A stretch of 64,000 bases of DNA from Roseomonas sp. (GTDB lineage: Bacteria; Pseudomonadota; Alphaproteobacteria; Acetobacterales; Acetobacteraceae). A program made the translations under genes and the position numbers. The stretch is from assembly GCA_020249505.1 (NCBI GenBank), contig JADCFN010000003.1:186001-250000 (forward strand), in the 5' to 3' direction. Below, piece by piece: positions 6,559 to 34,638 of this stretch (the first letter of the stretch is position 1; every line of letters starts with the position of its first letter). Below the pieces are notes generated by a model. The model saw only the letters and a list, made by a program, of their open reading frames with translations. It ran no database searches and was not told where the DNA came from.

Positions 6559-7092
6559 TTAATGGGTCATCGTGGTTGGGGCAGCGGCTTTCGCCGTCGC
6601 CGCGATCAGTTCATCGGTCAGCACCAGCTTGGCGCGGCGGATATTGCCGCGCGGCAGCGCCAATTCAGTACCATCATCCAGCTTGAGCCGTGCTTCGGCG
6701 TCATCCGCGCCAAGTGCGATACCGCGAAAACGCTTGCGGCCATCCATAGGGATGGAAAGCTCCACCGTCGCCACATGGCCGGCGAAACGGTTCCAATCCT
6801 TGGTCCGCGTCAGCGGGCGATCAATGCCGGCAGAGGATACTTCCAGCATCCATTCGCCCTTGATCGGGTCCGCAACATCAAGCACGGCGCCCACGGCATG
6901 GCTGATGGTTTCGCAATCTTCCACGGTGAAGGGCGCTTCATCCGCGCGGTCTGCCATGATTTGCACCACCGGGCGTTCCTTGCCGGAAACCTGCACGCGC
7001 ACGAGTTCATAGCCAAGCTGTGTCAGGCTGGGCAGAATCGCTTCCGCGATGCGGGCTTCAAGCCCTTCATGATGGGGTAGATCAGGCTGCAA
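6559..7092 (-). CDS. rimP: Ribosome maturation factor RimP (probable TTG start)
   Basis: [85 protein letters not shown]; gene order with nusA. The only in-frame candidate starts close to the domain are TTG codons at about 7092. Confidence 0.92.
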
Positions 7093-7125
7093 AAACAAAA
7101 AAAGGCGGCCTCTTTCAAGGCCACC
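7091..7125 (-). terminator. Intrinsic terminator/attenuator-like hairpin immediately before rimP
   Basis: Minus strand: GGTGGCCT-TGAAAG-AGGCCGCC followed by TTTTTTTGTTTTT (8-bp stem with one G.U, then a U-tract). Confidence 0.8.
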
Positions 7126-7246
7126 CCCCTTAAACTCGGATGGTGTCAGTGAAAGGTTTGTAGCTCTGGCGCGGCCAAAAGGCAAGGGCCGAACAAAATC
7201 TGGGAAAATAGGCGCAGGTCCCCATATGGCGACCAGGAACAAGCGC

Positions 7247-7852
7247 ATGACCCTAACGCCGCCCCCAAAGCTGATCCCCCGTCGCGCCCTGGCCGGTGCA
7301 GTGCTGCCATTGCTTGGCCTGGCGCCCCGGCCTGCTGAGGCTGCGCGAGTTTTTCGCTTCGATCATACCCAGGGAAGGCTGGAATTCATCGCGCGGCATT
7401 TGATGGTGCTGACCTCAACAGGGCAGTTTTCGCGCTTCGCCTGTGAATTGGTCCTGGATCCTGACCGGCCCGAGACCGCGCGTGTCGCGGTTCAGGTCGA
7501 AACAGCTTCCATCGCCCATGCCTATCCGGGGGCAGCGGATTTATTGCGCTCGCCCGCCTATTTCGATGCTGAACGTTGGCCGATGGCGCGTTTTTCCGGC
7601 CGCGCCAAGCCGGGTGGGCGGATTGAGGCTTTTGAACTGGCCGGCCCCTTGGAAATGCGTGGCGTCACGCAGCCGGTTACCATGCAAGCAAAGCTTTCGG
7701 GTCGGCGACGCGATCCGGCAACGGGGGCCGAGATTGTGGCGTGCACCGCGCGTGGGGAGATCAGTCGCTCGGCCTTCGGCATGACCGCCGATACTTTGGC
7801 AACCGCGGATCGTGTACAATTGGCGGTCTCGGTTAGTCTGGTTATTGGGTAA
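7247..7852 (+). CDS. YceI family protein
   Basis: [40 protein letters not shown]...[17 protein letters not shown]...[12 protein letters not shown]; alternative start at 7226. Confidence 0.85.
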
Positions 7853-8405
7853 AGTCTTGTCGGTTGATGCGCCCCCGGCATGGTCGGTTGCGCAGCGACG
7901 CCTGCATTGGGCCATGGCCGCGCTGGTTTTTTTGAACTTCTTGCTGGCGCTGGTGATGGTGGCGCTGCCGCTTTCAGCACTTTTGGCGAAAATTCTGACC
8001 TACCAGCTCCATAAAAGCATAGGCCTTTTGCTGATTCCGCTTTGGGCTTGGCGACTTTGGCTTCTGGCGCGGCGTGGTCGGCCCGCTTCTGTTACGCTGC
8101 CAGGCTGGCAGCAGGGGGCGGCACGATTAGGCCAGGGGTTGCTTTATGCGTTGCTGATTGCCGTGCCCCTGCTGGGGTTCTTGAGCGCGGCCGCAGCCCC
8201 GATTGCCGTGGAGACCGTGTTCTTCCTGATCCTGCCCATTCCACACCCCTTCCCGCCGGATCAAGCGCTGTATGATTTATTGCGCCCTTTGCATCAGGGC
8301 GCGGCTTGGGGCTTGGTTGGACTTGCCTTGGGCCACGGGGCGCTGACGATCCATCATCATCGGCGCGGGCTGCCGATTTTACGGCGGATGTGGCGTAGTG
8401 GTTGA
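7812..8405 (+). CDS. Cytochrome b561-like membrane protein
   Basis: Four hydrophobic segments, WSVAQRRLHWAMAALVFLNF and LHKSIGLLLIPLWAWRL heme-ligand-type His; next to YceI, a common pairing. Confidence 0.8.
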   Translation: MYNWRSRLVWLLGKVLSVDAPPAWSVAQRRLHWAMAALVFLNFLLALVMVALPLSALLAKILTYQLHKSIGLLLIPLWAWRLWLLARRGRPASVTLPGWQQGAARLGQGLLYALLIAVPLLGFLSAAAAPIAVETVFFLILPIPHPFPPDQALYDLLRPLHQGAAWGLVGLALGHGALTIHHHRRGLPILRRMWRSG

Positions 8406-8473
8406 GCCGCGGTCATTCGAACCGCGCCTTATCCGACGAAATGGCTCTATCAGCGCTTAGCGCTAAACAAGGA

Positions 8474-8977
8474 TCAGGCCGCGTCTTCGCGGCGTTCCTT
8501 CTCGCGCGGCTTTACATAGGCAACCGCAGCATGTTCGGCGCAATAGGGCTTGCCGGACATGGGATCGCCCTCACAGAAGCGGAATTCCGGGGTGCCGGGC
8601 TCCCCAATCGGCCAGCAGCAGGTGCGCGATCCACCAAGGCGCGGGCGGGGCGGCGCTTGGTTGCGCACGGCAGCCGGGGGCGGGGCAACCAGCACCACAG
8701 GGGCGGCTTGCGGGGGCGGGGCCTGCGGGCGCATCACCGGGGCGCTAGGCATAGGGCGCGCCACAGGTGCCTGACGGGGCGGGCGGGGGCTAGGCGTGGT
8801 GCGCCGCTCCTGCGGGTCACGCCGGATCGGGCTTGGCCGGGAAGAAAGGTTCAGCCGATGCGCCTTGCCCACCACGGCATTTTTTGAAATCCCCATGCGG
8901 CGACCAATTTCTGCGGTCGAAAGACCCTCGGCCCAGAAGGCGCGCAGCCTCTCAATCGCTTCTTGCGTCCAATCCAT
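8474..8977 (-). CDS. gcrA: GcrA-type cell cycle regulator
   Basis: N-terminus MDWTQEAIERLRAFWAEGLSTAEIGRRMGISKNAVVGKAHRLNLSSRPSPI is characteristic; CCWPIGEPGTPEFRFC C-terminus. Confidence 0.95.
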   Translation of the reverse strand: MDWTQEAIERLRAFWAEGLSTAEIGRRMGISKNAVVGKAHRLNLSSRPSPIRRDPQERRTTPSPRPPRQAPVARPMPSAPVMRPQAPPPQAAPVVLVAPPPAAVRNQAPPRPRLGGSRTCCWPIGEPGTPEFRFCEGDPMSGKPYCAEHAAVAYVKPREKERREDAA

Positions 8978-9176
8978 GAAGGAACCCCCCTATGATCTCC
9001 CCAACACAAGATACGGTAGGGAAAAGGGCCTGGACACACAAGTTCTATGTGCAGCGGCTTTGCAAAAATCTGTGGAAAACACCGTATAAAACCTTGCCAG
9101 ATGCGTTTTGGCGGCGTCCGATGGGCCATGGCGATGAATTTTTCAGCGGTGACACGACCGGTTCGGCGGCTTTCCC

Positions 9177-10493
9177 GTGAATAGCGGCGCGCAGAGGCTG
9201 CGCCGGATCCTGACCCTTGCGGCGCCGACTACCCTTTTGGCGGCGACGCAAATCATCGCGCAATTGATTGAACCCTGGCTGGCCGCGCGGCAGGGCCAGG
9301 CGGCTTTGGCGGGCTGGGCGGTGGTGCTGCCCTTCACCCTGCTGCTGTCCCAAATGTCGGCCGGCGCCATGGGGGGCGGCGTGGTTTCGGCCATTGCCCG
9401 CGCCTTGGGCGGCGGGAAGCGGGATGAGGCGGCGGCGCTGGCGGCCCATGCGCTGATCATCGCCTGTGCCGGTGCGGCGCTGTTCGCGCTGCCCTTTCTG
9501 CTGGCCCCGCGCGCGATCTTGGGCTTGATCGGTGGCGCGGGGGCGGCCGAGGCCGGCGCGGCCTATGCCGCCTGGACCTTTGGTGCCGGCGCGCTGCCGG
9601 CCTGGCTGACCAATACATTGGCGTCCATCCTACGCGGTGGCGGGCGGCATGCCTTGGCGGCGCGCGGCGTAGTGGGCGGCTGGGTGATCTTTCCGCCGCT
9701 CGCCTGGGTCTTCATGGAACCGCTGGGCCTTGGCCTGCCCGGCGCCGGCATGGCCTTCGCGCTCAGCATGAGTGCTTCCGCGCTGATCATGGCGCTTGTG
9801 GTGCTGCGTGGCGGTGCCGGGTTTGTGCCGGATTTCCGAGCGCCGCTCAGGCGGGCGCTGTTCGGGCGCATCCTGGCGGTGGGGCTGATTGCCTGCGTCA
9901 TGGCGACGCTCGCCAATCTCGCGACCATTCTGGTGACGGCGCGCATCGCAGCACACGGGCCGGCGGCCATTGCCGCCTATGGCATTTCCGCGCGCATGGA
10001 ATTCCTGATGATCCCGCTTGCCTTTGGCATAGGCTCCGCACTCACGGCCCTGGTCGGGCGGGCGGTTGGCGCGGGGGATTGGGAGGAGGCGCGGCGCATC
10101 GCCTGGACGGGTGGCGCTTTGGCCTTTGCGGTGACAGGCGTGATCGGCTTTGGCATTGCGCTTTTTCCCGCCCAGGTGGCGGCGGCCTTTGCCAGTGACG
10201 CGGCGGTGGCGGCGATTGCGACCGACGCGCTGGCGATTATCGGCTGGGCCTTGCCGGGTTTTGGCCTGGGCATGGCGCTTTATTTTGCGGCCATGGGCGC
10301 GGGGCGGATGCGCTGGCCGGTGCTGGCGGCCGTCACGCGTGTGGGGCTTGCCGTGCTGGGGGGTGCCTTGCTGATGGATGCGGCGGGGCTTGGGCTGACG
10401 GGGCAATTCATTGCCGTGGCGCTTGGCATTACTGCTTACGGGCTGATTTGTGCGCTCGCCGTGCGGCCTGGGGTTTGGCCGGGAAGAATCTAA
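9177..10493 (+). CDS. MATE family efflux transporter (GTG start)
   Basis: 438 aa polytopic; TLAAPTTLLAATQIIAQLIEPWLAARQGQAALAGWAVVLPF... Confidence 0.85.
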   Translation: MNSGAQRLRRILTLAAPTTLLAATQIIAQLIEPWLAARQGQAALAGWAVVLPFTLLLSQMSAGAMGGGVVSAIARALGGGKRDEAAALAAHALIIACAGAALFALPFLLAPRAILGLIGGAGAAEAGAAYAAWTFGAGALPAWLTNTLASILRGGGRHALAARGVVGGWVIFPPLAWVFMEPLGLGLPGAGMAFALSMSASALIMALVVLRGGAGFVPDFRAPLRRALFGRILAVGLIACVMATLANLATILVTARIAAHGPAAIAAYGISARMEFLMIPLAFGIGSALTALVGRAVGAGDWEEARRIAWTGGALAFAVTGVIGFGIALFPAQVAAAFASDAAVAAIATDALAIIGWALPGFGLGMALYFAAMGAGRMRWPVLAAVTRVGLAVLGGALLMDAAGLGLTGQFIAVALGITAYGLICALAVRPGVWPGRI

Positions 10494-31201: not shown

Positions 31202-31903
31202 ATGCCGCAAACCATCGCCCTTGTGGATGATGACCGCAATATCCTCACTTCTGTGTCCATGACCCTGGAACAGGAAGGCTATCAGGTGCGCACCTATACG
31301 GATGGGGAAAGCGCGCTGCAGGGCCTGCTGGCCAAGCCGGCCGATCTGGCGGTGCTGGACATCAAAATGCCGCGCATGGATGGCATGGAATTGCTCCAGC
31401 GGCTCCGCCAGCGCAGCAATATGCCGGTGGTGTTTCTGACTTCCAAGGATGAGGAGGTGGATGAGCTGATGGGGCTGCGCCTTGGTGCCGATGATTACAT
31501 CACCAAGCCCTTTTCGCAGCGCTTGTTGCTGGAACGCATCCGCGCCTTGCTGCGCCGGAATGAAGGTGCGCGGGCAGAAGGTTCGGGCGCGCCGCCCGGC
31601 GGCGTGCTGGGGCGCGGTGACCTGATGCTGGATGAGACGAAGCACACCTGCCTGTGGAAGGGCAAACAGGTGCAATTGACCGTCACGGAATTCCTGCTGG
31701 TGAAGGCACTCGCGCTGCGCCCGGGGATGGTGAAGAACCGCGACCAGCTGATTGATGCCGCTTATGGCGAAAACATCTATGTGGATGACCGCACGATTGA
31801 CAGCCATGTGAAGCGCATCCGCCGCAAATTCCGCCATACGGATGGGGATTTCGACCAGATCGAAACCCTTTACGGCATCGGCTATCGTTATAAGGAGAAT
31901 TGA
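31202..31903 (+). CDS. chvI: Two-component response regulator, ChvI-type (OmpR/PhoB family)
   Basis: [36 protein letters not shown]...[24 protein letters not shown]-terminal winged helix ending [20 protein letters not shown]; close to pckA. Confidence 0.9.
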
Positions 31904-31905
31904 GG
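31841..31905 (+). repeat. Proximal copy of a 65-bp direct repeat (3' end of intact chvI)
   Basis: 59/65 identical to 34138-34202; all six mismatches are synonymous in the chvI frame. Confidence 0.9.
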
Positions 31906-31957
31906 GGTTCTCCCCTCAAAAAATGGCGATTACGCACTTCCCAAACACGAGCCCGAA

Positions 31958-32254
31958 TCAGAGCCCAAGTTCGGCCTTCAACTGCTTCACGCGCTGAGCA
32001 AGCCTGTTGATTTTCCGCTCCCGGGCTGGACTCACATTATCCTCGTCGCTGGATAGCTGGCGCAGGGCAGCCACCTCCGATTCGGCTCGCGCAAGCTCGG
32101 CGACCTTGTTCTGATCCATGCTCTGGGCTCCCCCGTGGCCGGGCTTGTGCCGCGCGACTGCCGCCAGCTTCTCGCGGAACGCGGCCTCGGACTCGTCTGC
32201 GCCGATGTCACGGGCGACCTCCTCGAACCTATCACTCTGTTCCGCCGGTGTCAT
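31958..32254 (-). CDS. Small hypothetical protein, C-terminal coiled-coil-like
   Basis: MTPAEQSDRFEEVARDIGADESEAAFREKLAAVARHKP...KINRLAQRVKQLKAELGL; overlaps the 3' end of the PIN gene. Confidence 0.65.
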   Translation of the reverse strand: MTPAEQSDRFEEVARDIGADESEAAFREKLAAVARHKPGHGGAQSMDQNKVAELARAESEVAALRQLSSDEDNVSPARERKINRLAQRVKQLKAELGL

Positions 32255-32762
32255 TATCGCTCCCTTCAAACAACGGCCCTATAGGCACACTCTGCGAAGG
32301 TCGACATATCTTTAACAGGTTGCCATCACCCCCGATGATTGTATTGTCTAAAGCAAGAATCTTGTCATCAAACGTGTGCAACTCAGATACTCTTGCTCTC
32401 TGCGCGGACGCCAGATGAACAGCATCGGGGGGCTTGAGCCTCACTAGGCCTGTGGCTTGCATAGACTGCGCCCTTCGTCCAATAGCAAGGTCGACCGGCA
32501 CGATCAAAATATAGCTTTTCTCGAAAAAAGCGGGTAGGTTATCAATTGGGCTAGAAACGACCTTTGGGCTTCTGCAGACCTCAGCAAGGGTAAATGCCGA
32601 TGTCACAATTTCATATTTCCCACTCTGAGCCCCCTCAAGAATATTGAGGCACATGCTATAACGGTTTTCCATCCCGCCGTCCTTAACGGGGACGGCCTTC
32701 TCTTCTGCGATGAATGCGATCCATGCGCAGGAGTCCCAGTAGACGCGCCGCGCCTTAGCCAT
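32232..32762 (-). CDS. PIN-domain protein (VapC-like toxin candidate)
   Basis: VYWDSCAWIAFI...SAFTLAEVCR...LKPPDAVHLASAQRARVSELHTFDDKIL: spacing of acidic residues as in PIN nucleases. Confidence 0.82.
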   Translation of the reverse strand: MAKARRVYWDSCAWIAFIAEEKAVPVKDGGMENRYSMCLNILEGAQSGKYEIVTSAFTLAEVCRSPKVVSSPIDNLPAFFEKSYILIVPVDLAIGRRAQSMQATGLVRLKPPDAVHLASAQRARVSELHTFDDKILALDNTIIGGDGNLLKICRPSQSVPIGPLFEGSDNDTGGTE

Positions 32763-33615
32763 CGCTTCTCAGCGCCTCCAAATACTCAGATGCTTCCAAG
32801 CCATTGGTGAAGCCGGGCGATACAATAGCCGCGAAGCTAGGCAACTCACTGTCATCTGCAAACACATGAACCCCGTCTACCTCGACGGAACCAATGTCTT
32901 CCAAATCCTTATAGTTAACAACCCCGTAGACGGTGATTCGCATACCCTTCAAGACTTCGCCGATTTCATAGTGACCAATTCTGTCTAGTGCGCTGCCAAC
33001 GGCAATACACTTGACCATTTGCCCGTCCAGCCGGGATCGAAGCCACAACACTGGCCGCTGGTACCCGTCGAGTTCTACCCGCGTTATCGTGCCTTCAATA
33101 GAACCGAGTTCTTTATGTGGAACTGGCTGCGGTGCGCGAAACATTTGGATAGCAGAAATAGAAGTGCCGACGGTCTGTTTAGTAATTTCAATTGGCGGTG
33201 CTGCTACATAATTGGAGAAGTCTATGGCAGTTTGGGCTAAGCCATTGGTAATTCGGTCATAAACCTTCTCAACCTTTTCAACAAGCGCATCGGAGAAATA
33301 CGCCGGGCGACCCCGTCCCGTAGACAGTGCCTGAAAACCCTGCGCAGCGGAAGTCACGACCTGTTCAGCCCTGCGATCAATATTCATCGCGTGAGATTTG
33401 GGAAACGGAGTAATTTCAAAAGACAATGGGGAATTGCGAGTCACGTTCGTGACGCGCCAGACGATTTCCTTCTTTCCATCGTCCGCCATAGCCTCTTCGA
33501 CACCCTTCAGCACCCCAACGAAATCTTGGATCTGAGCCAGCAGGTCTTCGACCGTGGGAGCGTCTTCGCCGTCCACGTCATTGCCTTTGACCGTAATCCT
33601 AATGGGTTTTGCCAA
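32755..33615 (-). CDS. Hypothetical protein, 286 aa, 8-nt overlap with the downstream PIN gene
   Basis: Clean ORF MAKPIRITVKGNDVDGEDAPTVEDLLAQIQDFVGVLKGVEEAM...; stop overlaps start of PIN ORF. Confidence 0.75.
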   Translation of the reverse strand: MAKPIRITVKGNDVDGEDAPTVEDLLAQIQDFVGVLKGVEEAMADDGKKEIVWRVTNVTRNSPLSFEITPFPKSHAMNIDRRAEQVVTSAAQGFQALSTGRGRPAYFSDALVEKVEKVYDRITNGLAQTAIDFSNYVAAPPIEITKQTVGTSISAIQMFRAPQPVPHKELGSIEGTITRVELDGYQRPVLWLRSRLDGQMVKCIAVGSALDRIGHYEIGEVLKGMRITVYGVVNYKDLEDIGSVEVDGVHVFADDSELPSFAAIVSPGFTNGLEASEYLEALRSDG

Positions 33616-33728
33616 CTTCAGCGCCTCCGGCGCAGATTCTACAATCCGAACGAGCCCCGGTAAAGCAGTCTTTTCCCTGCCCCCCCGTTAAGTGCCAGAC
33701 CGGCGTGGGCCGCGTCGCTCGGCCCCAC

Positions 33729-34000
33729 CCATCCGATGGCTTTAGCGAAAGCCGTACACCGCATACCCTGCTTGCAACGGCAGAGAGCGGGCATGGGGTC
33801 ACCATCATTCCGTCGCCCCCTCGAACCGACCGATACCAGCTGCAGGTTGTCGCGCTCACTTATCAAGGCGATGCGCTACCAGAACGTGCAGCGATCTATT
33901 GGGACAGGGGCAGACCTTTGCCGCGCTATGCGGTGGCCTTCTGCGGCATGTTCGGCGCGTGTTTGCAGTGGGTCTTCTCGATATCACGCCCGAACAAGGC
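33729..34000 (+). pseudogene. Remnant of a LysR-type regulator C-terminal domain
   Basis: Frame reads DGFSESRTPHTLLATAESGHGVTIIPSPPRTDRYQLQVVALTYQGDALPERAAIYWDRGRPLPRYAVAFCGMFGACLQWVFSISRP, resembling a LysR effector-domain C-terminus with no HTH upstream. Confidence 0.55.
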
Positions 34001-34113
34001 AGACAGATCACTGCAGCGAGGAAGCCGTTTGCCAGGGAAAAGGAAAGATGCGTCGCAGGCGCGATTATCTTGCACGGCTTTGACGCTCATCACCTGATAA
34101 AAAGCTCCGCAAA

Positions 34114-34200
34114 GTCCGCCGGAAGTTCTGCCAAACAGATGGGGATTTCGACCAGATCGAGACGCTTTATGGCATTGGGTATCGCTATAAGGAGAATTGA
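34114..34200 (+). pseudogene. Truncated duplicate of the chvI 3' end
   Basis: In frame: [29 protein letters not shown], matching the ChvI C-terminus [30 protein letters not shown]. Confidence 0.88.
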
Positions 34201-34223
34201 GGCGCGACATCGCCGCGCCTTTT
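34201..34223 (+). terminator. Putative intrinsic terminator after the distal chvI 3' copy
   Basis: GGCGCG-ACATCGC-CGCGCC-TTTT directly after the duplicated stop codon; convergent with apaG. Confidence 0.6.
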
Positions 34224-34224
34224 C

Positions 34225-34638
34225 CTAATGCAACCGCGCCGAAGGCAGATGCGGGCTGTCCAGGCTGAAATCGGGAATGGCGACATCAAACGCCTCACCC
34301 GTTTCGCGCACCACCATGTGATAGGCGCCGCGCATGAAGCCCGATGGTGTGCCTAAAGGCGTGCCAGAGGTATATTCAAACCGCCCGCCCGGTTCCAGGA
34401 TGGGCTGTTCACCGACCACGCCCGCCCCTTGCACCTGTTGTGTGCGCCCGGTGCCATCCATGATCTGCCAGGTGCGGCGGATAAGCTGCACCGTTTCTGG
34501 GCCCAGATTGGCGATTTCCACCTGATAGGCCCAGACGAATTGAGCGCTCTCAGGCATGGATTGCTCAGCCAGATAAAAGGCGCGCACCGCCACCCTTATC
34601 CCCCGCGTCGTCGCGATGAATGAATCACCTTTAGTCAT
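34225..34638 (-). CDS. apaG: Co2+/Mg2+ efflux protein ApaG
   Basis: FVWAYQVEIANLGPETVQLIRRTWQIMDGTGRTQQVQGAGVVGEQPILEPGGRFEYTSGTPLGTPSGFMRGAYHM. Confidence 0.95.
   Translation of the reverse strand: MTKGDSFIATTRGIRVAVRAFYLAEQSMPESAQFVWAYQVEIANLGPETVQLIRRTWQIMDGTGRTQQVQGAGVVGEQPILEPGGRFEYTSGTPLGTPSGFMRGAYHMVVRETGEAFDVAIPDFSLDSPHLPSARLH

Follow-up and report, generated by a model that had tools for sequence, protein, structure and literature searches.

A PIN-domain nuclease and a large partner with a predicted OB-fold: a putative toxin-antitoxin-type pair carried by IS1595 transposons and phages

Introduction

Few groups of toxins are as numerous as those with a PIN domain, and most of the partners known for them are small antitoxins that bind DNA. 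A trio of overlapping minus-strand reading frames in a Roseomonas sp. genome raises the question of whether a PIN-domain nuclease can be paired with a protein of quite another kind. The trio occupies positions 31958-33615 of a 64,000-nucleotide stretch of contig JADCFN010000003.1 (assembly GCA_020249505.1), hereafter the window. Here we ask which of the three genes belong together, how the cassette came to reside where it does, and what it may do.

Results

A PIN-domain nuclease gene overlaps the genes on either side

In the order of transcription, the three frames encode a 286-aa protein that we treat as a putative antitoxin (32755-33615, TTG start), a 176-aa PIN-domain nuclease and putative toxin (32232-32762, ATG start), and a small charged protein of 98 aa (31958-32254, from an ATG at 32254; 103 aa if a TTG at 32269 is used). 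The first and second overlap by 8 nt (32755-32762) and the second and third by 23 nt (32232-32254), as the first-pass annotation of this locus had reported. We do not regard the three ORFs as products of chance, because 21 other loci show the same gene order and the PIN gene has a dN/dS of 0.03 against its nearest relative, L003 (17 synonymous and 2 non-synonymous differences). The G+C content is 0.513 for the 286-aa gene, 0.516 for the PIN gene and 0.643 for the small gene, versus 0.627 for the 64-kb window; the earlier description of the cassette as less GC-rich than its surroundings thus holds for the first two genes and fails for the third.

The PIN assignment itself, originally made from the sequence alone, is confirmed by a match to the Pfam family PF01850 that exceeds the curated cut-off (38 bits, E 2.5e-9). 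Residues D10, E61, D113, T130 and D132 are invariant among 18 homologues. These include all four catalytic acids (D10/E61/D113/D132), on whose conservation the first-pass annotation had made its toxin reading depend.

The partner is a large protein with a predicted OB-fold

Searches of Pfam, NCBIfam, PADLOC and PHROGs matched the 286-aa protein to no family, which leaves it without a match to any known family outside toxin-antitoxin systems, an identity that had been raised as a possible objection. The reported absence of AbrB, RHH and HTH motifs also stands, as no RHH, AbrB, Phd, HTH or MerR match was detected. A search of solved structures with a profile of 12 partner homologues returned nothing. 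BPL_C, tRNA_anti-like and DUF6309 were rejected as identities for the partner, the matches to these Pfam families being sub-threshold and scattered over single members.

An AlphaFold2 model built from six sequences (pLDDT 72.9) was used in place of a discarded two-sequence model (pLDDT 44). It comprises an alpha/beta N-terminal half and a C-terminal five-strand barrel, which in the model and by Foldseek comparison is an OB-fold spanning about residues 167-251. Foldseek matches of the barrel include lysyl-tRNA synthetase (where we assume that the match is to the anticodon-binding OB domain), TiaS and mycobacterial SSB, and, among phage proteins, tRNA_anti-like and SSB proteins. Over the whole length, the matches are three phage proteins, with low whole-chain TM-scores to a fold model of moderate quality (pLDDT 73). 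The most conserved partner residues include W53, G171, E174, G175, C203 and G231. The tail (residues 255-286; consensus in the long forms DPxFTxGLxxxEYLxxLR) is also conserved, yet it is modeled with low confidence or as disordered. We speculate that it is a segment that folds on PIN, which would fit its conservation despite the modeled disorder. In size the partner greatly exceeds the usual antitoxins, it lacks a recognized DNA-binding antitoxin domain, and it could instead be an activator or an enzyme.

One of the three whole-length phage matches is labeled DUF6575 (PF20215). The Foldseek alignment to this protein covers the 286-aa model from end to end (E 9.5e-9), but with a TM-score of 0.38, and PF20215 is not matched at E<=1 by the window protein or at E<=0.1 by 12 members of its family. 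No PIN gene was seen beside two genomic DUF6575 proteins in the short flanking stretches examined. Lacking support in sequence and a PIN neighbor, DUF6575 was set aside as the partner's family.

Partner and PIN genes occur together and co-diverge

Our searches yielded 22 non-redundant pair loci, comprising the window and 21 further loci from Alphaproteobacteria, other Pseudomonadota, phages and a plasmid. A scan of species genomes identified two MAGs, one of Tabrizicola (L002), at 69% identity, and one of 'Roseomonas' (L003), which has the pair at the same chvI site and reaches 96% across the portion that it retains. A translated search located a relative with 24% identity on the Methylobacterium oryzae plasmid pMOC1. 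Whole-genome profile searches contributed nine more loci in the class (10/395 genomes, the source genome included), and a broader profile added three more genomes along with a second, diverged pair in the source genome. Five IMG/VR contigs, of which two represent a single element, carry the pair, as does the Pseudomonas phage vB_PaeS_AV001 (L070) in a phage collection; viral scans with L004-type and L042-type alignments returned nothing.

At 22/22 loci, the next same-strand gene after the 286-aa family encodes a PIN protein of the same subfamily. Co-occurrence of the two families, named earlier as a point to check, is thereby upheld, with the 286-aa family never found without PIN. The converse search, begun from PIN in 98 genomes (E<=1e-12), gave five matches, all at places already known beside a partner. 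The two genes overlap by 8 nt in 7 of 18 measured loci and by 4, 7, 11 or 17 nt in ten; L052, with a 2-nt gap, is the only one of the 18 that lacks an overlap. Partner and PIN co-diverge, as judged from the correlation of their identity/distance matrices across 18 loci (r=0.937, Mantel p=0.0001).

At three loci, the PIN gene is broken by a frameshift (L016, L039) or an in-frame stop (L020) while the partner ORF remains open, and the reverse case, a broken partner with an intact PIN gene, was not seen among the pair loci. A PIN protein that does harm on its own would be expected to leave such a pattern. It suggests such harm from three cases, some of which could be explained by errors in draft or MAG sequence.

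The second pair of the source genome (L042:4845-6171; G000:C21:118658-119846) is strongly diverged and stands alone between dnaE and mazG, genes that we named from their sequences. No IS1595 remnant was found there.

Pair loci are associated with IS1595-family transposases

An intact IS1595-family transposase gene (PF12762, E 2e-33 for L004) lies directly upstream of the pair in L004, L019, L021 and L053, and truncated remnants of one occupy this position in L050, L041, L002 and L014. In L021, 41-bp terminal inverted repeats enclose the transposase, partner, PIN and small ORF. L053 has a phage terminase gene as its neighbor, and L002 interrupts an MmeI-type restriction gene.

The window copy retains, of a DDE IS1595 transposase, only a weak C-terminal remnant of 24 residues (33654-33725, minus strand), detected as a profile match to transposase positions 280-303. 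This match is weak when taken alone (E 0.46 when every window ORF is searched, 0.013 with upstream stretches only); the full-length transposases of L004, L019, L021 and L053 end at the same position. On the other side of the cassette, a matrix derived from the ends of four relatives highlights a candidate right terminal inverted repeat, GGCGATTACGCACTTCCCAAACA (31925-31947, plus strand), which is suggestive only; it ranks fourth among 127,956 positions and falls at the expected place. The left end was not found in the window. At the chvI 3' end, the window copy thus has the look of a decayed transposon of IS1595 type from which the transposase has been lost. A pseudogene fragment of a LysR-type regulator (33736-33990, plus strand; substrate domain, PF03466, E 8.7e-5, which falls short of the curated cut-off) abuts the transposase remnant within the insertion.

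Upstream of the 286-aa gene we noted a candidate sigma-70-type promoter, TTTACC, 17 nt, TAGAAT (33636-33664, minus strand), which overlaps the last transposase codons. TTTACC-N17-TAGAAT (or TAAAAT) is found in the corresponding position in the window and in L002, L014, L049 and L050, and close variants are present in L021, L022, L039, L052 and L053. The pattern TTTAC-N18-TARAAT occurs once on the minus strand of the 64-kb window, at this site. A tRNA or other RNA element was dismissed as the source of the conserved upstream stretch, since ARAGORN and Rfam were negative and the stretch fits a promoter that overlaps the 3' end of the transposase gene.

The window cassette lies at a variable site beside chvI

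The cassette sits between an intact chvI and apaG. A displaced duplicate of the chvI 3' end (34115-34200, plus strand; 86 bp, 87% identical) marks the far edge of the insertion, and in a congener (G049) chvI and apaG are about 26 bp apart. These two observations support the earlier interpretation of a chvI-targeted insertion; no integrase gene was seen in the window cassette. Elsewhere in the genus, the chvI-apaG gap (31903-34226 in the window; L043, L045, L046, L047) is variable, being empty, filled by a GNAT-like gene or occupied by the pair cassette. The acetyltransferase-like gene, assigned to GNAT by eye, is found in G125 and G064. In two cases the cassette is accompanied by a duplicated chvI 3' end (86 and 121 bp). 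This arrangement fits the repeated use of the chvI 3' end as an insertion target.

The small third gene most likely belongs to the transposon

For the small ORF, searches of Pfam, NCBIfam and PADLOC gave no family match that passes the cut-off, and PHROGs gave none. Its residues 1-39 correspond to a family of small ORFs found downstream of IS1595 transposases; the remaining C-terminal stretch is absent from other members and constitutes a local extension. By profile, this family follows PIN in 10/22 pair loci and is absent from 12, and in L002 the ORF is frameshifted. The same profile, run against 118 genomes of the class, also gave convincing matches at four sites that lack the pair; at three of these sites the ORF directly follows an IS1595 transposase (L064, L066, L067). 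Because its family follows IS1595 transposases where no pair is present, the small ORF is most likely a resident gene of IS1595-type transposons that is separate from the pair. The first-pass annotation had counted the small protein among the components of a possible toxin-antitoxin module. Our data do not support this, given that its family occurs after IS1595 transposases without the pair and is missing at roughly half of the pair loci, and that its G+C content differs. Nor does a SecB-like chaperone, the third gene of toxin-antitoxin-chaperone systems, describe an ORF that has no family match and occurs without the pair. The three pair-free members (L064:4328-4528, L066:3939-4109, L067:3386-3757) represent an undescribed family of small charged proteins encoded 3' of IS1595 transposases, perhaps accessory factors of transposition.

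Phage and defense context

In vB_PaeS_AV001, the pair lies beside the phage's S24-peptidase repressor gene. The position beside a temperate-phage repressor is a usual place for superinfection-exclusion genes. On a viral contig, the L049 pair adjoins a PARIS pair (AriA, E 2.5e-33; AriB, E 9.6e-20). Genomic context of this kind suggests a possible role of the pair in phage defense, although most pair loci are without defense neighbors, and PADLOC models recognize no family among the three window proteins and their diverged relatives.

Two further observations concern these elements. Gene 055 of vB_PaeS_AV001 (L070:4785-5318) is labeled 'repressor protein', yet it encodes a PIN domain (PF01850, E 2.1e-8), and the label is likely a misannotation. 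The AriA/AriB genes of L049 (PARIS-like, 7025-9486) lie near a tyrosine integrase as well as the partner-PIN pair.

Discussion

We think it fairly likely that the partner and PIN genes form a two-gene toxin-antitoxin-type pair with an antitoxin of a new family, carried by IS1595 transposons and phages. The atypical, PIN-based toxin-antitoxin module envisaged by the first-pass annotation gains support from the PIN neighbor at 22/22 loci, the partner's lack of a known family and the invariant catalytic acids. An upstream partner is the arrangement of most type II systems (PMC7157771). As in VapBC, a PIN toxin with four acidic residues has an upstream partner gene in an overlapping frame and a mobile distribution, and the pair probably works like VapBC. 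Its partner, at about 250-290 aa and with an OB-fold, is unlike the small DNA-binding antitoxin of VapBC. Because that antitoxin is the defining feature of VapBC and our tests did not find it here, we do not file the pair under that name. Among the PIN partners given in parts of PMC2701414 and PMC10440598, there is no OB-fold partner of this kind.

Toxin-antitoxin pairs also reside in the transposition module of Tn3 transposons, where PIN is paired with RHH_6, Phd or AbrB (PMC7157771). The pairs described here are similarly carried beside the transposition genes of a DDE transposon, PIN toxins included, but the carrier belongs to the IS1595 family, the partner family is new and no resolvase was seen. 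IS1595-type elements with passenger genes have precedents in the tIS elements tISCpe8 (lincomycin resistance) and MTnSag1, both mobilizable (PMC5704250). Within the openly accessible literature, we found no report of IS1595 elements with VapC or toxin-antitoxin passengers. An earlier description of the partner-PIN pair was likewise not found in a search that mostly covered sources outside subscription journals.

In the mechanism we propose for a toxin-antitoxin pair, the PIN protein would be a metal-dependent RNase toxin. The OB-fold protein would be translated first from a shared message, coupled to PIN via the overlapping start and stop, and would bind and restrain PIN, probably through its conserved C-terminal tail. 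Its OB domain may contact RNA, single-stranded DNA or the operon's own promoter or leader. Were the OB protein lost or diverted, PIN would cleave RNA and growth would stop. Since the module is a passenger of IS1595-family transposons and temperate phages, its likely benefit would be stabilization of the element, phage exclusion or both.

The main rival to this interpretation is a sensor-effector anti-phage system, in which the OB protein would sense phage nucleic acid or SSB and activate PIN in an abortive infection, acting as an activator or licensing subunit and not as a classical antitoxin. OB folds bind nucleic acid, and the repressor-side location in AV001, the PARIS neighbor of L049 and the insertion of L002 inside a restriction gene would all suit such a system. 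So would the full-length fold match to a DUF6575 phage protein, one DUF6575 protein being among the anti-phage hits of a screen (PMC9519451). However, the DUF6575 link is a low-scoring fold match with no counterpart in sequence, no PADLOC model matches and defense neighbors are absent at most loci; we regard a sensor-effector system as possible but rather unlikely.

The remaining explanations concern the transposon itself. The pair might limit IS1595 transposase expression or mRNA, as has been proposed for Tn3 toxin-antitoxin pairs (PMC7157771). In favor of this are its placement between the transposase and the small resident ORF and a candidate promoter lying over the last transposase codons. 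Against this, pairs persist without a transposase, for example between dnaE and mazG (L042), in phage L070 and in L015, L016 and L017, and common ancestry alone may account for the upstream similarity; we consider a regulator of transposition improbable. Even less credible is a true three-gene toxin-antitoxin operon with the small protein as a required chaperone or adaptor. One small-ORF family does follow PIN at 10 of the 22 loci, and in the window it overlaps PIN, but it also follows IS1595 transposases without a pair in L064, L066 and L067, is missing from 12 pairs, is frameshifted in L002, and in the window has a G+C content of 0.643 against 0.51 for the pair.

A further reading can be put forward tentatively, as a conjecture that we consider rather unlikely. 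The pair would be the first described member of a system in which a nucleic-acid-binding OB-fold protein is both restrainer and sensor for a PIN RNase, with PIN freed through titration of the OB domain by phage or foreign single-stranded nucleic acid, and with IS1595 transposons and temperate phages as the means of spread. The pair is about 1.4 kb long and is found both in alphaproteobacteria and in a phage of Pseudomonas, which makes toxicity and phage protection directly testable in laboratory strains. If the toxin-antitoxin reading is true, an unannotated protein family gains a testable role, IS1595 transposons join the mobile elements that carry toxin-antitoxin modules, and a large OB-fold partner exclusive to one PIN subfamily would represent a new way to control a PIN RNase.
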